DNA from: a virus
Virus record (IMG/VR): IMGVR_UViG_3300048111_000264
Location: 1 to 22,878 of that record
Strand: one strand, 5' to 3'
DNA length: 22,878 bases
Part shown: positions 8,844 through 22,195 of the stretch, one piece after another
How positions within the stretch are numbered: position 1 is the stretch's first letter
Layout of the letters: every line of letters begins with the position of its first letter
The notes under the pieces: model-generated
Database searches by the model: none
The model's input: the letters and a program-made list of their open reading frames with translations, nothing else
What the model was told of the DNA's origin: nothing
Position numbers and translations under genes: made by a program

Positions 8844-9974
8844 ATGGCGAAAAAGAAGGCAGTAAAAGAGCTTGACCTGGCTGATATTCTAGCGGGTGAA
8901 CTCAACAAACAATCGAAAGATTCCAAAGTAGCATTTTTTCTTAACGATGATGAAGCACCTACAAACGTAGATGGTTGGATATCGACAGGATGTGCAATGT
9001 TGGATGTGGCTGTTTCAAATCGTCCTTATGGTGGTTTACCCGTTGGTAGAATAACTGAAATCACAGGATTAGAACAATCAGGAAAATCATTAGTATCAGC
9101 ACACCTCCTTGCGGAAACACAGAAACAAGGTGGTGTTGCTGTTCTTATTGATACAGAAACTGCAGTAAGTAGAGAATTTTTAGAAGCAATCGGTGTTGAC
9201 GTTTCTAAACTTCTTTATGTAACCGCAGATTCGGTTGAACAAATCTTTGATTTCACAGAAACTATCATTGAGAAAGTTAGAGAAACTTCCAAAGATAAGA
9301 TAGTAACAATAGTAGTAGATTCAGTTGCGGCTGCTTCTACAACTAATGAATTAGCGGCAGATTACAAGAAAGATGGATATGCTACTGATAAAGCTATTAT
9401 TATCTCGAAGGCAATGAGAAAGATTACCAATATGATTGGTAGACAGAAAATCTCATTAGTATTCACTAACCAACTTAGACAAAAGATGAATGCTATGTTC
9501 GGTGACCCTTGGACTACAAGTGGTGGTAAAGCTCTTGCTTTTCACGCATCTGTAAGATTGAGGTTAAAGAATATGGGACAAATCAAGATGAAGGTAAATG
9601 GTAAGGACAAAACAGTTGGTATGAAAGTACGTTGTCAAGTTGTAAAAAACAGAATGGGCCCACCTCTAAGAGCGGCTGATTTTGAAATCTACTTTGACAG
9701 AGGGATTGATAACTACGGGTCATGGCTCGGAGTTATGAAAGAAAACAAATTAGTAAAACAAGCTGGTGCATGGTATGCATATGTTGATACTGAAACTGGT
9801 GAAGAATTTAAATTTCAATCAAAAGATTTTATTCCTTTGATGGATGAGAATACTGAACTCAGAGAACAGATTTACAAAAAGATATGTGAAGAAACAATCT
9901 TACAATATAAATCTGATACTTTAGATATCGATAATATGGAAGTAGATACTCGTGGTGCTGGTGTAAATGAATAG
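8844..9974 (+). CDS. uvsX: UvsX-like (RecA family) recombinase
   Basis: 376 residues. ATP-dependent strand-exchange protein that forms filaments on ssDNA, for recombination-dependent replication and repair. Walker A is GLEQSGKS at 75-82; Walker B is IVTIVVDS with Asp159. The loop TNQLRQKMNAMFGDPWTTSG (208-227) followed by GKALAFHASVRLRL is the RecA/UvsX L2 region and following strand. The N-terminal part (about 1-45) would mediate monomer contacts. The position directly after ssb is the expected partnership; the next small gene starts two bases after the stop. Confidence 0.93.
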   Translation: MAKKKAVKELDLADILAGELNKQSKDSKVAFFLNDDEAPTNVDGWISTGCAMLDVAVSNRPYGGLPVGRITEITGLEQSGKSLVSAHLLAETQKQGGVAVLIDTETAVSREFLEAIGVDVSKLLYVTADSVEQIFDFTETIIEKVRETSKDKIVTIVVDSVAAASTTNELAADYKKDGYATDKAIIISKAMRKITNMIGRQKISLVFTNQLRQKMNAMFGDPWTTSGGKALAFHASVRLRLKNMGQIKMKVNGKDKTVGMKVRCQVVKNRMGPPLRAADFEIYFDRGIDNYGSWLGVMKENKLVKQAGAWYAYVDTETGEEFKFQSKDFIPLMDENTELREQIYKKICEETILQYKSDTLDIDNMEVDTRGAGVNE

Positions 9975-9976
9975 TT

Positions 9977-10198
9977 ATGGACAAAAAATTATTTACGATG
10001 TTGAAAAGTAGTGCTGAGGCTGATAAGGCCAAAGCTCTACTTTCTTTAGAACTTCTTGGTAATAAAGCAGTTGGAATTGGTGACCACTCTACTGAAGATT
10101 TCTACAAAAACGCAGAGGAAGCTCTCGTTATGTTAGTAGATGCAGATGATAGATTAGGAGCACTTGAAAAATACTTTAATACTAAAGAAGTTTTATAA
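9977..10198 (+). CDS. Hypothetical small protein between uvsX and exonuclease
   Basis: 73 residues, probably helical (SSAEADKAKALLSLELL), no recognised motif. Two bases follow the uvsX stop, and its TAA overlaps the next ATG (TAATG at 10196-10200), so it is translationally coupled on both sides. That tight placement suggests a replication or recombination accessory protein. UvsY would be a natural idea, but I see no sequence support for it. Confidence 0.6.
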   Translation: MDKKLFTMLKSSAEADKAKALLSLELLGNKAVGIGDHSTEDFYKNAEEALVMLVDADDRLGALEKYFNTKEVL

Positions 10199-11253
10199 TG
10201 AAAGAACTATACAAAAACATTTTAGATTCGGTTGAAACCGATAGAGAACAAAATATCAATAGACACAAGAATTCTCGTGTTTTAATTATTGATGGGTTAA
10301 ATACATTTATCAGATGTTGGTCATCTATTCCTACAATGAATGAAGATGGTGACCATGTTGGTGGTGTAACTGGTGTTCTCAAATCGATTGGATATGCAAT
10401 TAGACAAACTCAACCGACTCGTGTTGTTGTAGTGTTCGATGGTAAGGGTGGTTCTACCCAAAGAAAGAAGAAATTTAGTGGATATAAAGCTCAAAGAGAT
10501 TCTAACAAACTCAGAGTAAATCGTGCCTATGCAGGTATGATGAATGATGAGGATGAAAGAGAATCCATGAAAAGACAATTCGTTTGGTTAAATGAAATGT
10601 TAGATGGGTTACCTCTTACAACTATGATATATGATGGTGTTGAAGCCGATGATATCATGGCTTATATATCCACCAAACTTCTCAAGGAAGATGAACAGGC
10701 GGTGATTATGTCAACTGATAAGGATTTCCTTCAATTGGTTGATGATACAACCATCGTCTGGTCACCCACCAAAAAGAAAATGTACAATACAACAATGGTA
10801 AAAGAAGAGTATGGAATTGAATCCAAAAACCTTTTACTATATAGAGTATTGGATGGGGATAAATCAGATAATATTCCTGGAGTATATGGATGTGGTATTA
10901 AGACCGTAGTAAAAAGATTTCCTGAAATTACAGAAGATGTTAAATTATCAGTAGATGATTTATTAAAATTATGTGAAGAAAAGGAAACTGAAACAAAAGG
11001 TAAAATAAAGATTTACAAAGATATACTTAAATCAAAAAGACAAATATTACTAAATAGGGAACTAATGCAACTCGATGATGTTGATATTAGTGGTAATATA
11101 AAAATGAAAACTTTAGATAGATTTAACGAACCTATCGAGCCCTTAAATAAAATGAATTTCATGAAAATTCTGTTAAAATACAAAGTTATCGGAAACTTTG
11201 GAGATATCAATGATTGGTTAAAAACCACTTTTGGAAATTTAATCATAAAATAA
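10198..11253 (+). CDS. 5'-3' exonuclease / RNase H (FEN-like, T4 Rnh type)
   Basis: 351 residues. Removes RNA primers and 5' flaps during lagging-strand synthesis. PIN/FEN active-site acids are visible in order: VLIIDGLN (D32), VVFDGKGG (D81), GVEADDI (E149, D151, D152), STDKDF (D174, D176) and LDGDKSDNIPGVYG (D221, D224). The last leads into a helix-hairpin-helix DNA-binding region (about 225-240). KKKFSGYKAQR at 90-100 is the conserved basic segment. The start overlaps the previous stop by one base. The C-terminal third (about 250-351) is less conserved and Lys-rich. Confidence 0.9.
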   Translation: MKELYKNILDSVETDREQNINRHKNSRVLIIDGLNTFIRCWSSIPTMNEDGDHVGGVTGVLKSIGYAIRQTQPTRVVVVFDGKGGSTQRKKKFSGYKAQRDSNKLRVNRAYAGMMNDEDERESMKRQFVWLNEMLDGLPLTTMIYDGVEADDIMAYISTKLLKEDEQAVIMSTDKDFLQLVDDTTIVWSPTKKKMYNTTMVKEEYGIESKNLLLYRVLDGDKSDNIPGVYGCGIKTVVKRFPEITEDVKLSVDDLLKLCEEKETETKGKIKIYKDILKSKRQILLNRELMQLDDVDISGNIKMKTLDRFNEPIEPLNKMNFMKILLKYKVIGNFGDINDWLKTTFGNLIIK

Positions 11254-11306: not shown

Positions 11307-12668
11307 ATGCAAGAACAAATAGATACATTATCAAAATATGGCCAATCGTTCCAATCGAAAGTAGTTTCGGCTCTACTTACAGATGGGAAATTCTTAGATA
11401 CGATTAGTGAAATAACTACCGCTAAGTTCTTTGAGAACGATGCTAACAAATGGATTATTTCTGAGATACTACAATATCATTTAGATTATAAAAAACCTCC
11501 TACACTCGATGTATTCAAATCACAATTATCAAAAGTAGATAACGAAGTTTTAAAGAAAACTGTTGTAGAACAACTACGACACGTTTTTACTCAAGTTGGT
11601 AATGTAGATTTAGATTATATTAAGGATGAGTTTAAAAGTTTTTGTATTAATCAAAATTTAAAAAACGTAATACTACAATCAGTAGATTTATTACAAGCTG
11701 GTTCTTATGATAGAATCAAAGATTTAGTAGATTCAGCTATGAAGGTTGGTAACGAAACCAACTTAGGTATGGATTATATCGAAGATTTCGATATGAGAAC
11801 TGAAGAACTAAATAGAACAACTGTTCCAACTAAATGGAATCCTATAAATGATTTAATGGATGGTGGATTAGGACCAGGTGAGTTAGGAGTAGTTGTTGCA
11901 CCATCAGGTGTTGGAAAAACATGGATTCTCACCGCTATCGGTGCAGAAGCTGTTCGGAGAGGTTTGAGTGTAGTACATTACACAATGGAATTATCAGAGC
12001 ACTACGTTGGTGCGAGATATGATACTGTGTTTACACAAATACCTTCCACAGATTTGAAGGACAAAAAAGAAGAGGTAAAAGGCAAAATCTCGAACTTGAA
12101 GGGGAAACTACTTATTAAGTACTTCCCTCCAAAGGGTGTTACAGTAAAAAAGTTACAGCAACATATAGAGAAAATGGTTACGTTAGATAACAAACCCGAT
12201 GTTATCATTGTTGATTATGCCGACCTTCTCCTCTCTCACTCTAATAAGTCAGACTCTACTTATGCGGAGCAAGGAGGAGTATATATTGACCTTCGTGGAA
12301 TGAGTGGTGAATTGGAAATTCCAATTTGGACTGCATCTCAGACCAACCGTTCAGCAATTGATTCCGAAGTTATCGAGGCAGATAAGATTGCAGATTCTTA
12401 TGCCAAAGTAATGAACGCAGATTTCATTATGAGTTGGAGTAGAAAATCAAAAGATAAATTGAATGATACTGCTCGAGCTCATATTATGAAAAACAGATTC
12501 GGACCAGATGGAATCACATTCCCATGTAAGATGAATACCAACACAGGTTACATTGAAGTTTATGATGGAACATCACCCGATGGTGTAATTGCACAGAAAG
12601 AGGCAGCAAGTGGACAATTAGAAACTAAAAAACTCTTACATAAGAAGTATGTAGAGAATATGGGATAA
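11307..12668 (+). CDS. Replicative DNA helicase, DnaB/T4 gp41-like
   Basis: 453 residues. Hexameric 5'-3' helicase of the phage replisome. The N-terminal helical domain (about 1-150) resembles the DnaB N-domain (QSKVVSALLTDGKFL). The RecA-like motor has Walker A APSGVGKT at 198-205, a probable catalytic Glu in TMELS (E228), Walker B VIIVDYADLL at 299-308, sensor-like ASQTNR at 343-348, and KNRFG at 395-399 as the likely arginine finger region. No separate primase is seen in the window. ATG 11307 follows the promoter by about 20 bases without a clear Shine-Dalgarno. The next gene starts one base after the stop. Confidence 0.92.
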   Translation: MQEQIDTLSKYGQSFQSKVVSALLTDGKFLDTISEITTAKFFENDANKWIISEILQYHLDYKKPPTLDVFKSQLSKVDNEVLKKTVVEQLRHVFTQVGNVDLDYIKDEFKSFCINQNLKNVILQSVDLLQAGSYDRIKDLVDSAMKVGNETNLGMDYIEDFDMRTEELNRTTVPTKWNPINDLMDGGLGPGELGVVVAPSGVGKTWILTAIGAEAVRRGLSVVHYTMELSEHYVGARYDTVFTQIPSTDLKDKKEEVKGKISNLKGKLLIKYFPPKGVTVKKLQQHIEKMVTLDNKPDVIIVDYADLLLSHSNKSDSTYAEQGGVYIDLRGMSGELEIPIWTASQTNRSAIDSEVIEADKIADSYAKVMNADFIMSWSRKSKDKLNDTARAHIMKNRFGPDGITFPCKMNTNTGYIEVYDGTSPDGVIAQKEAASGQLETKKLLHKKYVENMG

Positions 12669-12669
12669 T

Positions 12670-13671
12670 ATGGGAGTATTAAAGTGGAAAGACCCTTGGC
12701 AAAGAGATTATACAGAGATAAATGTATTATACGATACAGGATTGTGTAATAGAATTTTTCATTGGGAAATTGCTAATCATATTAATAGTAAGTTTCACAA
12801 TGATGAATTTACTATATCAGTAGAAGAATCTCAATGGCCGGAGTTAGAGGAGTTGATAACTCTTCCAAATACATCGGTAATATTAAAAGAAGATGAAATT
12901 AAATATTTTAATAATTTGAGTGATATTGCAATCACAGATTGGAAAACATTGGGAGATATATTTACAAAAAAATCTAAGTTAGATTCAACAAAAAATTATA
13001 TATCAAAATATCCATATACTGATTTAGGTTGTTTTTACGCTAAAGATTTTTATGGTCACTCTGAACATGATGAAAAAGTGATGTTTTTAGAAAATAGACC
13101 ATTGAGTTCTATAAAACTAAAAAATGAAAATAATCAAAAAATCATTGAAAAAATTACATCTGATTTAGTTGGAGTTCATATAAGAAGAAGTAGGGGAGTT
13201 AAGATTCCAGATGAGTTATATGAAAATGATGAATACTCAGAATATGTAAACTTTAGAAAAGAACAAGGAGCTATAGAACATTCAATATTTAAATATCATT
13301 CAGATGAAGAGTATTTTCAATTGTTTGATTCTATTTTAGAATTAAATCCAAATCAAAAGTTTTATTTATCTTATGATGTACCAAAAAAATATGTGAAAAA
13401 TATATTAGATAAATACAAAGATGTTTTGATAACAAAGGATGATTTGAAAAAAGAATTAGATTTAACAAATATAAAAAATAGTAAAGAAATGCATCTTGAT
13501 AATGTAGTTGATTTATTTGGATTATCTAATACTAAATTTCTCATTGCATATCCAGTATCAACATGGAGTGTATTTGCATATGAGTATAAAAAGAAAAAAA
13601 GAAATTTTATACATGATGACTTGGGGTGGATAGTTTCAAGATATGAAAGACTGTTAAAACCGAAGATATGA
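12670..13671 (+). CDS. Fucosyltransferase-like glycosyltransferase (O-FucT/NodZ superfamily)
   Basis: 333 residues. YDTGLCNRIFHW at 21-32 matches the opening GxGNR(L/I) motif, VGVHIRRSRG at 167-176 matches the nucleotide-sugar-binding HxRRxD-type motif, and YPVSTWSVFAYE at 294-305 matches the C-terminal STFS..A motif. These three are the signature of the GT-B alpha-1,2/1,6 and protein O-fucosyltransferase superfamily. No signal peptide, so it is cytoplasmic. Donor and acceptor (host surface sugar, virion protein or DNA base) cannot be told. It sits one base after the helicase stop and reads richer in A-runs than its neighbours, so a recent insertion into the replication cluster is plausible. 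Confidence 0.7.
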   Translation: MGVLKWKDPWQRDYTEINVLYDTGLCNRIFHWEIANHINSKFHNDEFTISVEESQWPELEELITLPNTSVILKEDEIKYFNNLSDIAITDWKTLGDIFTKKSKLDSTKNYISKYPYTDLGCFYAKDFYGHSEHDEKVMFLENRPLSSIKLKNENNQKIIEKITSDLVGVHIRRSRGVKIPDELYENDEYSEYVNFRKEQGAIEHSIFKYHSDEEYFQLFDSILELNPNQKFYLSYDVPKKYVKNILDKYKDVLITKDDLKKELDLTNIKNSKEMHLDNVVDLFGLSNTKFLIAYPVSTWSVFAYEYKKKKRNFIHDDLGWIVSRYERLLKPKI

Positions 13672-13688
13672 TATCAAAAAATTATTAC

Positions 13689-13718
13689 ACATAGTGGGTT
13701 GAGAAATAACAACTATGT
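13689..13718 (+). other. Inverted repeat after glycosyltransferase gene
   Basis: ACATAGT at 13689-13695 and ACTATGT at 13712-13718 form a 7-bp stem with a 16-base loop; an alternative GTTG/CAAC inner stem exists. No T-run follows. It is a possible mRNA 3'-end or processing structure. Confidence 0.4.
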
Positions 13719-13781
13719 AACAAAATAGAAATTAAAAAAAATAACGAAAAAAGTTTTTCGTTTTTCAATATATACAATAAT

Positions 13782-13789
13782 TATAAACA
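13782..13789 (+). promoter_or_regulatory. Candidate promoter box TATAAACA before the histone-like gene
   Basis: TATAAACA is one base from the T4 late box TATAAATA and sits two bases before the hairpin at 13791. A second TATATACA lies at 13769-13776. The ssb gene has TATATACA in the equivalent place. No good TTG-N20-TATATTTG match is present here. Confidence 0.4.
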
Positions 13790-13790
13790 C

Positions 13791-13806
13791 GACCATAAGT
13801 TTGGTC
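13791..13806 (+). promoter_or_regulatory. 5'-UTR hairpin of the histone-like mRNA
   Basis: GACCA/TGGTC, a 5-bp stem with loop TAAGTT. It shares the run ATAAGTTTGG with the ssb hairpin, and both are followed by CACT and a CAAAA-rich leader. It lies 30 bases before the ATG at 13837. Confidence 0.45.
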
Positions 13807-13836
13807 ACTTCAAAAACAATTAAAAGGAAATATTTT

Positions 13837-14007
13837 ATGGCAAATTCACAAGAACTATTTGAACAGATTAAAGATTTATTCGTTCAATTCGAAGATGAAC
13901 ACAATGGTTCATCAAAAGCAGCAAAATCAAGAGCTAGAAAAGCAATTGGTGAAATTAAGAAACTTGTAACAGATTACAGAAAAGCATCAGTAGACGAAAA
14001 CAAATAA
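13837..14007 (+). CDS. Hc1-like histone H1 family DNA-binding protein
   Basis: 56 residues from ATG 13837, which has AAAAGGAA upstream; the in-frame TTG at 13801 lies inside the hairpin and is rejected. The sequence pattern (MANSQELFEQIKDLF, then SSKAAKSRARKAIGEIKKLV, then DYRKASV) matches the short Hc1-like proteins common in Bacteroidetes, which bind and compact DNA. Basic residues cluster in the middle and the termini are acidic. In a phage it could coat or condense phage or host DNA or act as a virion nucleoprotein. It has its own leader with a structured 5' end, suggesting high expression. Confidence 0.75.
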   Translation: MANSQELFEQIKDLFVQFEDEHNGSSKAAKSRARKAIGEIKKLVTDYRKASVDENK

Positions 14008-14023
14008 AAACATAGGTTATATC

Positions 14024-15019
14024 ATGAGTAAATTATTCCAAGAAAGAATTCCGTTTAAACCATTCGAATATCCAATCTACTATACAGAAGGTTGGTTGAA
14101 ACAGGCCCAAGCATTTTGGTTACATACTGAAATCCCAATGCAAGGGGATGTTAAAGATTGGAATGAACGATTAACACCCGCTGAAAAAAACTTAGTGGGG
14201 AATATTCTACTTGGTTTTGCTCAAACCGAATGTGCAGTTTCTGATTATTGGACTAACATGGTTACTGATTGGTTTCCGAAACATGAAATCAAACAGATGG
14301 CTATGATGTTCGGTTCTCAAGAAACTATTCACGCTACAGCTTATTCATATCTAAATGAGACATTAGGGTTAGAGGACTTTTCAGCATTTCTGCACGAACC
14401 TGCAGTTGCTGAGAAGTTTGAACTCCTAACCTCAACTACCGCTGAATGGAAACATGAAGATTTGGCAACAAATCCAAAAGCAAGACAGGAAGTTGGTAGA
14501 AGTTTAGCAATATTTTCAGCATTCGCTGAAGGAGTATCGTTATACTCTTCATTTGCAGTACTTTACTCATTCCAAATGAGAAATCTACTAAAAGGTATAG
14601 GACAACAAATGAAATGGAGTGTAAGAGATGAATCTCTACATTCTAAGATGGGTTGTCAATTATTCAGACATATGTGTGATGAATATCCTGAATTATTAGA
14701 TGAGTGTAGAGAATCAATCATAGAAGCATCAAAACTAATTGTACAATTAGAAACAAACTTCATTGATATGATTTTTGAACAAGGGGATTTGGAAAATCTT
14801 GAAAAAGAAGATTTAAAAGAATTTATTAAAGCAAGAACAAATACAAAATTACAAGAATTAGGATATGAACCAATTTTTGAATTCGATAAAAAGAAAGCAG
14901 AAAAATTAGAATGGTTCTATCATCTTACAGGAGGACTAACTCACACAGATTTCTTCGCTATCAGACCTACTGATTATTCTAAAGCGAATGAAGGTGAGGA
15001 TTGGGACGATTTATTTTAA
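14024..15019 (+). CDS. nrdB: Class I ribonucleotide reductase small subunit
   Basis: 331 residues. Houses the dinuclear metal cofactor that starts radical chemistry for dNTP synthesis. Likely metal ligands are E69 (in FAQTECAV), E100 and H103 (QETIH), E169 (FAEGVS), E203 and H206 (RDESLH). Tyr107, four residues after His103, sits where the radical Tyr is found. The first ligand is Glu where most class Ia/Ib enzymes have Asp; a Glu there is known in class Ic and some related groups. There is no N-terminal ATP-cone. The C-terminus EGEDWDDLF is the usual acidic tail that docks on NrdA. Followed after six bases by mazG. Confidence 0.93.
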   Translation: MSKLFQERIPFKPFEYPIYYTEGWLKQAQAFWLHTEIPMQGDVKDWNERLTPAEKNLVGNILLGFAQTECAVSDYWTNMVTDWFPKHEIKQMAMMFGSQETIHATAYSYLNETLGLEDFSAFLHEPAVAEKFELLTSTTAEWKHEDLATNPKARQEVGRSLAIFSAFAEGVSLYSSFAVLYSFQMRNLLKGIGQQMKWSVRDESLHSKMGCQLFRHMCDEYPELLDECRESIIEASKLIVQLETNFIDMIFEQGDLENLEKEDLKEFIKARTNTKLQELGYEPIFEFDKKKAEKLEWFYHLTGGLTHTDFFAIRPTDYSKANEGEDWDDLF

Positions 15020-15025
15020 AAAATT

Positions 15026-15337
15026 ATGAAAATGGATTTAAATGAGTTAGCCATTAAGGTTAGTAATTGGGCAATTACAAGAAATATTGATAAGAAAGAA
15101 AATGCCCCAAAACAAATGATAAAAGTGATGGAAGAAGTTGGTGAAACAGCTGGAGCACTTTTGAAGAAAAATGAATACGAGATAAAAGATGGTATTGGTG
15201 ATATTCTTGTAACTGTTATAATTTTAGCACGCCAATTGGGTTATACACCTGAAGAGTGTTTAGAACAAGCATACAATGAAATAGAAAACAGAACAGGTAA
15301 AACTGTTGATGGTGTATTTGTAAAAGACGAAAAATAA
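15026..15337 (+). CDS. MazG-like nucleotide pyrophosphohydrolase
   Basis: 103 residues, a single MazG domain. KVMEEVGETAGALLK (33-47) carries the EExxE metal motif (E36, E37, E40), and KDGIGDILVTVIILA (54-68) supplies the downstream acidic residues (D55, D59). The family splits NTPs or dNTPs to the monophosphate and pyrophosphate. It lies between nrdB and nrdA, so adjusting the nucleotide pool is the obvious reading; phage MazG has also been discussed as acting on alarmones. A second in-frame ATG at 15032 is possible. Confidence 0.85.
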   Translation: MKMDLNELAIKVSNWAITRNIDKKENAPKQMIKVMEEVGETAGALLKKNEYEIKDGIGDILVTVIILARQLGYTPEECLEQAYNEIENRTGKTVDGVFVKDEK

Positions 15338-15343
15338 TATAAA

Positions 15344-17940: not shown

Positions 17941-18594
17941 ATGAATAAATATGATGAAAAAACACTCGAAACTAACTATAACAAGTTTATCGAGGCAATT
18001 AAAAAATCTTTCGAAGGTGAAAGATTAAAAAAACTCTTACATATGTACTCAATGGAAGAATTAGGGCCTAACCTAATGTTATCTCCAGCGAGTGGAAACG
18101 TAAACTACCACAACGCTTATGAAGGTGGGTATATCGACCATGTTATGAATGTAGCTAGAAATTCACTCAGAATGATGAAACTCTACAAAGAAGCAGGTGG
18201 TATTATTGATTTTACACAAGATGAATTATTATTTTCAGCTTTTCATCACGATTTAGGAAAGTTAGGAAGTAAAGGAAAAATTCATTATGTAGATAATCCT
18301 TCTGATTGGCATGTAAAAAATCAAGGTAAGATATATGTTAGTAATTCAGAACTATCATATCTAACTCATACTGATAGAACTTTTTTCTTACTACAAGAAT
18401 ATGGAATCAAATATAATGAAAATGAATACTTTGGAATCAAACTAACTGATGGTATGTATGATGAAGATAATGTAAAATATTTTAAAGTATTTGACCCAAA
18501 AAATTATTTAAAATCAAATATACAATTTATACTCCATTGGGCTGACCATATGAGTACTTGTATTGAAAGAGATATTCAAAACGCTCCGTTTTAA
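17941..18594 (+). CDS. HD-domain phosphohydrolase
   Basis: 217 residues. The HD metal site is complete: H67 (GGYIDHVMNV), H103-D104 (FHHDLGKLG) and D202 (ILHWADHMS). The family hydrolyses phosphate esters, including nucleotides, cyclic nucleotides and (p)ppGpp. The catalytic domain spans most of the protein. The specific substrate is not readable. It lies one base ahead of the asparagine synthetase-like gene and shares its operon. Confidence 0.8.
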   Translation: MNKYDEKTLETNYNKFIEAIKKSFEGERLKKLLHMYSMEELGPNLMLSPASGNVNYHNAYEGGYIDHVMNVARNSLRMMKLYKEAGGIIDFTQDELLFSAFHHDLGKLGSKGKIHYVDNPSDWHVKNQGKIYVSNSELSYLTHTDRTFFLLQEYGIKYNENEYFGIKLTDGMYDEDNVKYFKVFDPKNYLKSNIQFILHWADHMSTCIERDIQNAPF

Positions 18595-18595
18595 T

Positions 18596-20035
18596 ATGTG
18601 TGGAATCATTGGTGGAAATAATTACAACTCATCTTCTATAAAAGATGGGTTGGATAAAATAATTCATAGAGGTAGAGATAACTCAACTATCGAACAAGTT
18701 GGGGATTTCTACTTTGCTCATAATAGATTATCTATACAAGATTTATCAGAAACAGCAAACCAACCATTTTGGAATGAGGATAAGACAGTTTGTTTAGTTT
18801 ATAATGGTGAATTGTGGGGAAGTGAACTTACCGATGAACTTAAGAGTAAAATAACAATACCATTTAGAACAACTTCTGATACTGAGATTATACTTAATTC
18901 TTATTTAGAATTTGGAGTTGATTCATTTAAAGATTTGGATGGTATGTTTTCTTTTTGTATTATTGACACAAGAAATCAAACTACATATCTTGTTAGAGAT
19001 TATATTGGTGAACTTCCATTTTGGTATTCTGTTGATAAAGTAACTAATAAATTGGCATTTTGTTCTGAAAAGAAAGGATTACCTCTTTCGGATATTTACA
19101 GAAAAAGTGTAAAGACTGTTTATCCTGGTACTTATGTTGAATACAATTATAAAACGTTAGAACATGATGTTAAAACTTACTATGAGTTACCAAAAGAAAT
19201 TATAAATGATGATAGAGAAACTATTGTTAAAAGAATCAGAAAAGATTTAGAAGAAGCGGTAAGAGTAAAGATGATTTCAGATGTTCCTATTTGCACACTT
19301 CTAAGTGGAGGAATTGATTCTGTAATAACAACATATCTTTTATCCAAATTATATCCTAAATTAGAAGCATTTGTAGTAACAACGGATGGTGGTAGTGATA
19401 TAAAGTTTGCAAGAATAGCAGCTAAAGAATTTGGTATTAAATTACATGAAATCCATATGACAAATCAAGAAATTATGGATTCAATTGATACTACGTTATA
19501 TGTAACTGAACTGAAAAAATGGCAGAATGTAGGTAGTGCACTTGCAACTATTAAATTAGGTGAAGAAATAAACAAACATGGATTCAAAGTAGTGTTTAGT
19601 GGTGATTTATCTGATGAAATTTGGGGTAGTTATGGAATTGTAACAAGATTCTGTTATACAGAAGAATCATATGATAACGCAAGAAGAAAATTAATAAGGG
19701 AAGTACATAAAGGAAACTTTCCATCACAAAATCAATCTATGATGTGGGGTGGTACTGTTGAAATTAGAACTCCATATTCTTGGAGACCATTTGTAGAGTA
19801 TTGTTTAAATATACCACCTATATATCAAACTGAAAAAGGATTGATGAAACCATTATTAAGAGATGCGTTTAAAGGTGAAATATCAGATGAACTTTTATAT
19901 AGAAAGAAAGTTTGGTTTGCACAAGGAGCAGGAACATCAACTGATATTGAACAAGTTAAAGATACACTAAAAGAAAGATTAGATAATCAATTTCAATATA
20001 AGGATGATTTAAATATTAAAAAGTTTTGGGGTTAA
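18596..20035 (+). CDS. Asparagine synthetase-like glutamine amidotransferase (AsnB family)
   Basis: 479 residues from ATG 18596. An upstream in-frame start at 18563 is rejected because it overlaps the HD gene and would bury the essential Cys2 of MCGIIGG. N-terminal class II glutamine amidotransferase (about 1-195): Cys2 nucleophile, HRGRD (24-28; cellular enzymes have HRGPD), YNGELWG (69-75), TTSDTE (92-97). C-terminal ATP-PPi synthetase: LLSGGIDS (235-242) PP-loop and SGDLSDEIWGSYG in place of the cellular SGEGADELFGGY. The enzyme is expected to use Gln and ATP to amidate a carboxylate; Asp to Asn is the default. The altered second loop leaves room for another acceptor. Confidence 0.85.
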   Translation: MCGIIGGNNYNSSSIKDGLDKIIHRGRDNSTIEQVGDFYFAHNRLSIQDLSETANQPFWNEDKTVCLVYNGELWGSELTDELKSKITIPFRTTSDTEIILNSYLEFGVDSFKDLDGMFSFCIIDTRNQTTYLVRDYIGELPFWYSVDKVTNKLAFCSEKKGLPLSDIYRKSVKTVYPGTYVEYNYKTLEHDVKTYYELPKEIINDDRETIVKRIRKDLEEAVRVKMISDVPICTLLSGGIDSVITTYLLSKLYPKLEAFVVTTDGGSDIKFARIAAKEFGIKLHEIHMTNQEIMDSIDTTLYVTELKKWQNVGSALATIKLGEEINKHGFKVVFSGDLSDEIWGSYGIVTRFCYTEESYDNARRKLIREVHKGNFPSQNQSMMWGGTVEIRTPYSWRPFVEYCLNIPPIYQTEKGLMKPLLRDAFKGEISDELLYRKKVWFAQGAGTSTDIEQVKDTLKERLDNQFQYKDDLNIKKFWG

Positions 20036-20617: not shown

Positions 20618-22195
20618 ATGAGCAAAAAAGATAATTGGGAAATTTTAAACGAATTAGAAATAGACACAAAATCTGTAAAGGTGGGCCATTTATATGGCGA
20701 AATATCTAACGGCAGATTAGTATCAATACCTGAGTTTTTACAAAGAGCATTATTAACAGATAAGTGGTTTTCAAATGAGTATAAAAACGCAAAAGAGTAT
20801 ATAACATCAGTTTGGGTAGGACAAGGTAAGATTGACTCAATTACAATCGTACCAATTAATCTATTAGTACAAAAAATAAATGAAAAGATAGAAACCGAAT
20901 TTGATGAAATTGTAAGAGAATCTTTAAAAGATGGATTGGCTTTATTAGAAGAATATATAAAAAACGGAGCAAAATCAGCTATATTAGATGGACAATCAAG
21001 GGGGTTTTTAGGATTTCTTGAATATATGAAAGGTACTTTCCCACTTGGTTCAGATTTAGCAAAAAAGATTAAACTAAGAAATAATGGAAAAGCTAAATCT
21101 ATCTTAGCACACACTATATTTACAGAACTACCAACTAAATTACAAGATTTATTTAAAGATAAATTATTAAATGTAAATATTGTAACTAATTTTAGTGATT
21201 TCAATGATGTAATCGATGCATTGGTTAATAAACAAAAAGGTTTCTCTTGGTCTAAATTTCAAATTATAAAACAAAAGAATAGATTTACATCTTTTGTAAA
21301 TTCATTTATTAATTCCTTTAAACCAGTAAAAAATAAAAAAGGAAAGATAGAATGGGATGGTGGAACAAAATACATAGAATTTTATAAAACACTAACAAAG
21401 AATTTAGCTGATAAATTGAAAGTTGATAAAGATGGTCATCAGTTATTTATGTTACAATGTTCTTATCTTTTAAAGTATGGTGCTTGGCCGACTGAATCTG
21501 AATTAAATGAAATTTTTGAATCACCAACGAGAACAATTGGAGAGAGTTATTATAAAAAAGTTATAAATTATTTCTCAGATGACTTTTTCCCATATATTGG
21601 AAAACAAAAAGTTTCAATATCACTTTTAATTAATTATTTAGTTTTTAGAGAAAGTTTGAGTAGAACAAAAATTAATAATCCACTCTCACAAAGAATTCAA
21701 TTCGATAGTGATGTTATAATTAAAGACCAAAAAGAATTAACTGATAGGTTTTATAAATTTGATTTAAAATTATCTAATAAAAAAGTGAATAATCCTCATC
21801 CCGCTTCTTTTGTAAAAATTGATGGTAAGTGGGAAATTCGTAATGAAGGATATAAACACCAAAATTCATCACAGAGTACTGAAACAATAGGAAAAAGAAT
21901 GGAATTATTCTTTGAACATTTTGATTTTGATTCTATGGTAAAAGAAGATTTTTTAACGATTGTTGAAAATAATAAAATGCCTTCAAAAAATACATTATTA
22001 ATAGATAGTGGTTTTTCTGATGTTGATGATAATAAAATTATGATTTCTGACTTACATGAATATGATAGGTCTCATCATGAGTCGAAAGATAATTATGGTA
22101 CTAATCAAAAAGATAATCTATCACTTGAAAAGGCCGGTCCAAATCGTTCAAGGGGTTCAAAAAATATGGAAAAGAAAAAAACCAATGTTGTATAA
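20618..22195 (+). CDS. DUF262 ParB-like + HNH nuclease (GmrSD/SspE-like)
   Basis: 525 residues. The N-terminal DUF262 (ParB/Srx-like) domain is seen in VSIPEFLQRALLTDKW (35-50), WVGQGKIDSITIV (66-78) and AILDGQSRGFLGFLE (121-135), the DGQQR-type motif that in GmrS and SspE is tied to NTP use. NKQKGFSWSKFQI (about 208-220) fits the 'lN.G...l' element. A long helical middle region (about 230-440) follows. The C-terminus has HEYDRSHHES (480-489) with N500 and NRSRGSK (509-515), an HNH layout (H...N...NR.kG). Such proteins cut modified or foreign DNA in bacterial defence. Here a phage carries one next to a methyltransferase-like gene. The HNH assignment is by motif spacing only. Confidence 0.7.
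   Translation: MSKKDNWEILNELEIDTKSVKVGHLYGEISNGRLVSIPEFLQRALLTDKWFSNEYKNAKEYITSVWVGQGKIDSITIVPINLLVQKINEKIETEFDEIVRESLKDGLALLEEYIKNGAKSAILDGQSRGFLGFLEYMKGTFPLGSDLAKKIKLRNNGKAKSILAHTIFTELPTKLQDLFKDKLLNVNIVTNFSDFNDVIDALVNKQKGFSWSKFQIIKQKNRFTSFVNSFINSFKPVKNKKGKIEWDGGTKYIEFYKTLTKNLADKLKVDKDGHQLFMLQCSYLLKYGAWPTESELNEIFESPTRTIGESYYKKVINYFSDDFFPYIGKQKVSISLLINYLVFRESLSRTKINNPLSQRIQFDSDVIIKDQKELTDRFYKFDLKLSNKKVNNPHPASFVKIDGKWEIRNEGYKHQNSSQSTETIGKRMELFFEHFDFDSMVKEDFLTIVENNKMPSKNTLLIDSGFSDVDDNKIMISDLHEYDRSHHESKDNYGTNQKDNLSLEKAGPNRSRGSKNMEKKKTNVV

Follow-up and report, generated by a model that had tools for sequence, protein, structure and literature searches.

The 22,878-nucleotide window of viral DNA analysed here (IMG/VR record IMGVR_UViG_3300048111_000264, positions 1 to 22,878) carries, directly downstream of its replicative helicase gene, an intact open reading frame for a putative glycosyltransferase of the NodZ/FUT8/POFUT/GT11 superfamily. 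The gene appears to be what currently fills an exchangeable accessory slot, located where the replication operon of a group of marine T4-like phages reaches its 3′ end. Overall, we consider it probable that a superfamily enzyme with a protein or glycan acceptor now occupies a slot that serves this phage group in counter-defence or competition.

The gene (12670-13671, forward strand; type A allele, see below) encodes 333 aa, starts with ATG and ends with TGA, and its start codon lies 1 bp past the TAA stop codon (12666-12668) of the DnaB-like helicase gene. The three superfamily motifs named in a preliminary description of this DNA were all found in the protein, with GLCNR at residues 24-28, HIRRSRG at 170-176 and STWS at 297-300. 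In an alignment of 28 family sequences, near-copies included, the invariant positions were W32, E58, T68, G168, H170, R172, R173, Y215, S234, D236, D281, L282, S297, S300 and Y306, and G24, R28 and W299 were nearly invariant. The string GLCNR itself varies in the family, reading for example GLGSK in cyanophage-type relatives. H170, R172 and R173, kept in 28 of 28 members, correspond to the HxRR motif, which contacts the phosphate of the GDP-sugar in the fucosyltransferase superfamily.

A first AlphaFold model, from 17 sequences (pLDDT 74.9), matched NodZ best (Z 13.6), and a second, built from the 28 family sequences, reached a pLDDT of 84.2 and a pTM of 0.86. When the second model was compared with solved structures by VIA-align, the best 43 of the 50 PDB entries listed were GDP-fucose fucosyltransferases (Z 13.7-11.6, 225-257 residues aligned), followed by WaaC as the next family at Z 10.6. 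POFUT2 (Z 13.7, 254 residues, rmsd 4.3), plant FUT1 (13.3), NodZ (13.2), FUT8 (13.1) and POFUT1 (12.6) scored too closely for the model to order them among themselves. All 50 rows listed by Foldseek were fucosyltransferases as well (best E 4.4e-6). The predicted GT-B fold therefore matches solved superfamily members above other GT-B enzymes among the 50 PDB entries listed, and the comparison with O-FucT and NodZ that the preliminary description had proposed came out in favour of its fucosyltransferase-like class. The DNA glucosyltransferases BGT and AGT of T4 were absent among the 50 VIA-align entries listed, which is no evidence of a differing fold.

The link to the superfamily rests on fold and motifs, because the curated profiles did not recognise the protein. 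It had no match to PF01531 (GT11), PF05830 (NodZ) or PF10250 (O-FucT) at E values up to 10, its sole Pfam match was to the unrelated family Lit (E 0.018, under the cut-off of that family), no match was obtained in NCBIfam or to PDB sequences, and PHROGs recognised 0 of the 28 family members, the window protein among them. Further PDB sequence searches gave chance-like matches only, and an hhalign comparison with two single cyanophage GT11 proteins scored 7.8% over 15 columns around HxRRG and 0.24%. Members scanned singly in Pfam matched GT11 in 5 of 28 cases (best E 0.013), NodZ in 2 (0.016) and O-FucT in 2 (0.026), all within E 0.013-0.1; these matches support the class weakly, since one or two members matched unrelated families at E values equally good or better (DOT1 0.00017, DUF3939 0.001, Lit 0.01). 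Taken together, predicted fold and motif strongly support the view that the gene product is a divergent branch of the NodZ/FUT8/POFUT/GT11 superfamily lying outside its curated families.

The gene was correctly placed in a replication cluster by the preliminary description. Upstream lie genes for a gp32-like SSB, a UvsX/RecA-like recombinase (8844-9974, +), a 5′-3′ exonuclease (10198-11253, +) and the DnaB-like replicative helicase (11307-12668, +; phrog_19, E 5.5e-77), and downstream lie genes for an Hc1/histone H1-like protein (13837-14007, +; 56 aa from a conserved ATG; PF07432, E 3.6e-10), the ribonucleotide reductase small subunit NrdB (14024-15019, +), which serves as a conserved downstream anchor, MazG, NrdA and thioredoxin. 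Comparison of slot loci gave the slot two borders, the helicase stop codon upstream and a conserved element, TATCAAAAAATTATTACA (13672-13689, +), downstream; this element has a single mismatch-free occurrence in the window. Among the empty slots whose sequence was read, an element of the form TATCAAAAAATTATWACA comes no more than a few bases after the helicase stop codon, with locus L062 differing. In filled slots the cargo ATG lies anywhere from 1 base inside the helicase stop codon to about 10 bp past it, and the conserved element stands at or just past the cargo end; type B genes read their final codons out of the element itself.

Past the element, a conserved intergenic stretch (13690-13836, +) contains a short hairpin (GACCA...TGGTC, 13789-13808) in front of the Hc1-like gene. 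By eye, its pairing is kept in other loci with changed sequence (CCACTC...GAGTGG in L031, CTACCA...TGGTAG in L063), so that it is possibly a 5′ UTR stabiliser; an Rfam scan of 12400-14100 returned nothing. Among the best 80 of 404 helicase matches, the Hc1-like gene follows the slot in every locus whose stretch reaches nrdB. A second variable slot with its own gene set was seen in the gap between nrdB and nrdA (15020-15343 in the window), which holds MazG here and, in relatives, MazG, SET-domain or small methyltransferase-like ORFs, others, or nothing (the MazG, SET and methyltransferase labels were checked with Pfam in one example each). Farther downstream (17941-20035) the window has a phosphohydrolase-like 217-aa gene, recognised by PHROG only, next to an asparagine-synthase-like gene. 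In some empty-slot relatives (L129, 10035-12240) a 232-aa thymidylate-synthase-like protein replaces the 217-aa gene beside a different asparagine-synthase-like enzyme, and the thymidylate-synthase-like and asparagine-synthase-like genes are possibly a nucleotide-modification pair.

Whole-window megablast returned Flavobacterium phage immuto records only, over 3% of the window; immuto is the closest relative in culture. The immuto gene order is polA, two unknowns, SSB, RecA, exonuclease, helicase, nrdB and nrdA, its helicase-nrdB gap contains only a 105-bp ORF on the opposite strand, and a search of its whole genome at E 0.001 found no fucosyltransferase-family member. From this kinship the host of the window phage is probably a member of the Bacteroidota. 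Cargo is likewise missing after the helicase in two relatives whose helicases are farther removed, Microcystis phage Mel-JY01, where the next gene is an RNR gene by Pfam, and LR756508, where the next ORF is RNR-like by eye; no fucosyltransferase-family member was found in either.

To survey the slot, helicase-based scans were followed through their best 80 of 404 and best 80 of 389 matches, giving 124 entries with the window and, after removal of those identical over up to 2500 bases, 71 distinct loci. Slot contents could be typed in 68 of these (7 from partial cargo, 3 from the conserved element alone), the other three stopping within 2 bp of the helicase. The slot was empty in 34 loci, held a fucosyltransferase-like gene in 21 and a DNA methyltransferase in 13, and showed no other content. 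The fucosyltransferase-like genes fell into the window's type A (5 loci), type B (15 loci, about 28-35% identical to type A) and type C (1 locus), and the methyltransferases into an N6_N4_Mtase family (type 1, 3 loci) and a second SPPY-type family (type 2, 10 loci). Type 1 scored over the Pfam cut-off for PF01555 and type 2 weakly and under it; PADLOC matched both as MTase_II and returned nothing for slot types A and B. We also noted a 71-kb contig (L132, 13648-16570, reverse strand) in which the slot is filled by two tandem, diverged N6/N4-type DNA methyltransferases.

The fucosyltransferase-like gene was thus missing from 47 of the 68 typed loci, as it was from immuto and from the near helicase relative L024, which bears out the earlier view of an insertion after the helicase; its presence in all relatives, which would have spoken against that view, was not what we found. 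Nor is it a unique insertion in one phage, since many relatives occupy the same slot. Because its borders are fixed and relatives show it empty, with other genes or with other alleles, the slot is best read as an exchangeable accessory site, a moron-like cargo site, closing the replication operon on its 3′ side. That its content is limited to fucosyltransferases and DNA methyltransferases is suggestive and not proven, because the independent cargo origins (two methyltransferase families and one to three fucosyltransferase lineages) are fewer than the 34 filled loci and methyltransferase-like genes also occur elsewhere in the group's phages (11 of 13 records matched, 6 over the cut-off). No description of this slot family surfaced in the literature searched, and we do not claim that it is unpublished.

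Turnover of the slot was traced on a DNA tree of the helicase, made by a quick search with SH-aLRT support only and with 15 of its 61 inner branches open. The six slot states required 14 changes on this tree (12 with types pooled), compared with a minimum of 5 and a mean of 31 for shuffled states. The window's nearest distinct helicase relative, L025, also has a type A gene and the next, L024, an empty slot, and L037, with a methyltransferase, is sister to L040, with a type B gene. Synonymous divergence was compared in 13 pairs of loci, 11 of which have the fucosyltransferase gene on both sides. The dS values of helicase, nrdB and fucosyltransferase gene were clearly discordant in L036/L041 (0.11, 0.08 and 0.79), L097/L098 (0.42, 0.62 and 0.14) and L049/L053 (0.43, 0.51 and 0.18), differed mildly between the window and L026 (0.06, 0.06 and 0.16), and in L036/L089 (0.47, 0.69 and 0.48) placed the gene close to its flanks. 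The history of the gene therefore differs from that of its flanks in at least three of the 11 pairs, and exchange is frequent but not universal, as in most pairs the dS of the gene is not clearly off that of the flanks.

Acquisition is shown by these relatives and not by composition, which the preliminary description had offered as a sign of it. The gene is indeed A-rich (A content 0.422) and has the lowest GC of the 15 window genes measured (0.256, helicase 0.353), but the genes for a 754-aa protein (0.429) and mazG (0.424) are richer in A, and the proposed codon-usage comparison gave a mild difference and no clear outlier, the distance to the remaining genes being 0.167 for the fucosyltransferase gene, 0.184 for mazG, 0.162 for polA and 0.160 for SSB. 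Composition alone would therefore not reveal the acquisition. The GC value is nearly equalled (0.266) by a gene at 20618-22195 whose 525-aa product had no match in Pfam, PHROG, NCBIfam or PADLOC. Type B alleles (n=10) have a GC of 0.235-0.252 compared with 0.31-0.35 for the helicases, and slot methyltransferases (n=6) one of 0.305-0.361. Outside the slot, family genes are only 0.007-0.028 under their surroundings in the six L208- to L234-type loci measured and 0.07-0.12 under them in L207, L230 and the cyanophage, so low GC is a trait of the slot-type lineages and some others and not of the whole family.

The wider family was scanned with the 17-sequence alignment, which gave 43 loci, many of them near-identical contigs, whose neighbours were typed by tblastn with neighbour proteins. 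Twenty-nine lie in the helicase slot, two are cyanophage-like and sit between uvsX and the helicase, one (L207) precedes an Hc1 gene, eight accompany a DegT-type aminotransferase and an amidinotransferase-like gene, one (L230) stands directly before an SF2 helicase, and two (L234 and L235) have none of these neighbour types. In L207, a more distant phage, the same Hc1-like gene follows the fucosyltransferase relative; a search of the 5 kb preceding that relative detected no helicase. An NDP-sugar epimerase occurs in seven of the eight DegT loci, and radical SAM and 2OG oxygenase genes in three. By locus, Pfam supported epimerases, PfkB, DegT, radical SAM and a 2OG oxygenase for L222, DegT for L208 and a 2OG oxygenase for each of L224 and L232. 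It also supported the SF2 helicase and the thymidylate-synthase-family gene of L230 and a tryptophan halogenase close to L234; the amidinotransferase-like and UvsW-like labels were assigned by eye.

Several of these loci deserve separate mention. A gene for a 2OG-Fe(II) oxygenase (PF13640) overlaps with the beginning of the fucosyltransferase gene in L222 (4367-6152), L224 (4348-6152) and L232 (4367-6131). Tandem family copies stand in a large-phage cluster with the DegT-type aminotransferase and amidinotransferase-like genes in L208 (3881-6023) and L210 (4989-7145), which suggests an elaborate phage-made glycan or metabolite. The distant member in L230 (4863-9484) lies immediately before the SF2 helicase gene; about 2.7 kb downstream is a complete gene of the thymidylate-synthase family (PF00303, E 2.6e-95), which could encode an ordinary thymidylate synthase or a hydroxymethylase. 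Another distant member (L234, 4674-8824) is near a tryptophan-halogenase-type flavoenzyme gene in a 69.5-kb viral contig, and the similar L235 locus is in a 216-kb contig that also holds L222. Contigs of the window's own phage group carry, far from the slot, a glycosyltransferase and sugar-nucleotide cluster (L190, 2090-11309; L191, 25-6820), in which epimerases and a nucleotide-sugar dehydrogenase were identified by Pfam and the rest, several glycosyltransferases included, by eye.

On the protein tree types A and B form one clade each (94/100 and 94/99), and the cluster members and L230 stand apart with moderate support (81/94); the deep order is unsure, with several long branches. A single clade for slot types A, B and C was not rejected (AU p 0.119), so the three types may go back to one acquisition or to several. 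The only family member among 50,697 phage records was the hypothetical protein XQU50079.1 of Synechococcus phage S-SCSM2R (24.6% identity over 87%). A scan of 51 stretches of genome contigs found no relatives, and a plasmid search with a type B query returned nothing.

The predicted enzyme would be a cytosolic, metal-independent, inverting GT-B glycosyltransferase, inverting and metal-free chemistry being a trait of the superfamily, and would most likely move L-fucose or a related 6-deoxyhexose from a GDP-sugar. GDP-fucose is the putative donor. No GDP-fucose synthesis gene was identified: PF16363-type epimerases, absent from the window, turned up in 8 of the 15 records tested, whether or not these carried the fucosyltransferase, and two epimerases from the largest contig with the gene (68 kb) scored 64 and 59 bits, where the NCBIfam model for GDP-fucose synthase has its cut-off at 500. 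GDP-fucose, if it is the donor, is therefore probably made by the host, and the donor could also be another sugar. In S-SCSM2R a cluster of its own is annotated with nucleoside-diphosphate-sugar epimerases and GT10/GT11 enzymes, both epimerases again falling under the NCBIfam GDP-fucose synthase cut-off. The report on cyanophage S-SCSM1 describes GDP-fucose genes together with three fucosyltransferases (PMC9602691).

Cargo genes sit directly behind the helicase, ahead of the conserved element, and from this position they are probably co-transcribed with the helicase; they are traded among phages, probably via homologous recombination in the flanks. The slot most likely carries counter-defence or competition functions expressed early in infection, as its alternative occupants are DNA methyltransferases. 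The known acceptors of the fucosyltransferase superfamily are glycans and proteins, and the distant relatives in sugar-gene clusters (8 of 43 loci) favour an acceptor of this kind; protein and glycan, taken jointly, thus make the likely acceptor class. Host O-antigen or capsule, virion proteins and hydroxylated DNA bases, the three acceptors named in the preliminary description, all stay candidates on the sequence data.

In one special case of this best explanation the enzyme would act on a protein of the virion or of the host, which might for example first be hydroxylated by 2OG-Fe(II) oxygenases, giving the acceptor hydroxyl, and then fucosylated. We regard it as possible. The PF13640 genes overlapping the gene start in L222, L224 and L232 fit such a scheme, as does S-SCSM1, to which its published description assigns 24 2OG-Fe(II) oxygenases alongside its three fucosyltransferases (PMC9602691), but no 2OG oxygenase was recognised in the window, which was read by eye with a scan of part of its ORFs. 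The oxygenase next to the S-SCSM2R gene had initially suggested a hydroxylate-then-glycosylate coupling; it has relatives in 441 phage records, with 14 of the 15 listed touching an annotated UvsX/RecA-type gene, whereas the fucosyltransferase is found in S-SCSM2R alone among 50,697 records. This pairing is nonspecific and was rejected as a sign of coupling, and the overlap in the three other loci stands.

Alternatively, the enzyme might be a DNA glycosyltransferase that adds a GDP-sugar to a hydroxylated base of phage DNA after replication, like the beta- and alpha-glucosyltransferases of T4, and swaps with DNA methyltransferases because both block restriction. DNA is in our view an unlikely acceptor, yet DNA methyltransferases are the only alternative contents of the slot seen, an alternation that suits DNA as well as a protein or glycan acceptor or better. 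It keeps DNA glycosylation in consideration together with the T4 neighbourhood, where a stretch of about 9.4 kb takes in dam, gene 41 (helicase), uvsX, beta-gt and gene 42 (dCMP hydroxymethylase); T4 also houses imm and dmd, which do not modify DNA, in its replication region, so that position alone is indecisive. The 25%-identical relative between uvsX and the helicase in S-SCSM2R, and the L230 relative, immediately before an SF2 helicase and some 2.7 kb away from a thymidylate-synthase-family gene, point in the same direction. Against DNA, besides the glycan and protein acceptors of the superfamily, the group's own thymidylate-synthase-like gene (232 aa; some 5.5 kb downstream of the helicase in the records that place it) was present in 4 of 32 partial records, all with empty slots, and in none of the 14 with the fucosyltransferase or the 6 with a methyltransferase; PF00303 was found in 4 of 13 records and in 0 of 5 with the fucosyltransferase gene. 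No profile similarity to T4 BGT or AGT was detected either (hhalign probability 0.25% and 0.29%, with single sequences on the T4 side). Protein charge, considered as an indicator of a DNA acceptor, was uninformative: the pI of ten family proteins (5.2-6.3) resembles that of T4 AGT (6.1) and the slot methyltransferases (5.4-6.0) and not that of T4 BGT (9.1).

Sugar clusters, for their part, do not exclude a DNA acceptor, because a putative DNA arabinosyltransferase lies inside a sugar-gene cluster according to PMC13390438. PMC12838424 describes another phage that combines a cytosine pentose with a thymidylate-synthase-type enzyme. A more specific proposal, that the helicase slot is a DNA-modification slot whose enzyme is a DNA 'fucosyltransferase' using GDP-fucose or another GDP-sugar on a NodZ/FUT8/POFUT fold, alternating with DNA methyltransferases from phage to phage and separate from the UDP-glucose enzymes of T4, strikes us as slightly less likely again than DNA as acceptor in general.

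Superinfection exclusion, by alteration of a host O-antigen or capsule glycan in the cytosol before export, would be another special case of the protein-or-glycan reading and seems to us improbable to the same degree as a DNA acceptor. GT11-type fucosyltransferases use cytosolic O-antigen intermediates, and the T4 superinfection gene imm also sits in a replication cluster, but a short lytic infection gives scant time to remodel the surface, and no flippase or lipid-linked glycan gene was recognised by eye among the window ORFs.

The gene is under purifying selection, with dN/dS at 0.15-0.28 in 8 of 10 within-type pairs and at 0.37 and 0.61 in the other two (between types, a single pair gave 0.48 at high dS); this and the many relatives rule out a chance ORF. 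A functionless passenger that hitch-hikes in a recombination-prone gap, which the absence of the gene from 47 of 68 typed loci might suggest, is scarcely credible given these ratios, the kept motif residues and the lack of any internal stop in 27 tree sequences.

The finding ties a predicted fucosyltransferase fold to a precisely bordered and fast-turning slot of a phage replication operon whose other occupants seen are only DNA methyltransferases, and raises the question of what the two enzymes share in the contest between phage and host. A protein or glycan acceptor, if true, would mean a new early counter-defence or exclusion tool, and a DNA acceptor, if true, a new chemistry of genome protection. 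The slot is in addition an address at which to look for more accessory functions in this marine phage group.

Among known systems, NodZ, FUT8, POFUT1/POFUT2, plant FUT1 and GT11 enzymes have the GT-B fold, HxRR motif and C-terminal S-x-W-S in common with the predicted window protein, which differs from them in its low identity (8-18% in structure alignments) and its phage operon setting. NodZ and FUT8 belong to GT23, POFUT1/POFUT2 to GT65/GT68 and plant FUT1 to GT37. Searches of BFVD with the first model indicated a common fold with viral fucosyltransferases of cyanophages S-SCSM1 (E 2.8e-6) and S-SRM01 (2.8e-5) and of giant viruses (best Solivirus, 1.2e-10). XQU50079.1 of S-SCSM2R is likewise near the helicase, inside the uvsX-to-helicase interval, but is flanked by uvsX and a 2OG-Fe(II) oxygenase gene upstream of the helicase, whereas the window gene is downstream of it. 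The T4 beta-glucosyltransferase/T6 TAGT slot, with dam and near 41, uvsX and 42, offers a parallel in arrangement; beta-GT is replaced by TAGT at the same place and the Dam-like gene is variable, according to PMC13390438. The glycosyltransferase families differ, and no thymidylate-synthase-type hydroxymethylase was found in the 14 partial contigs with the gene described here, but in both systems accessory modification genes are swapped near the helicase and UvsX.
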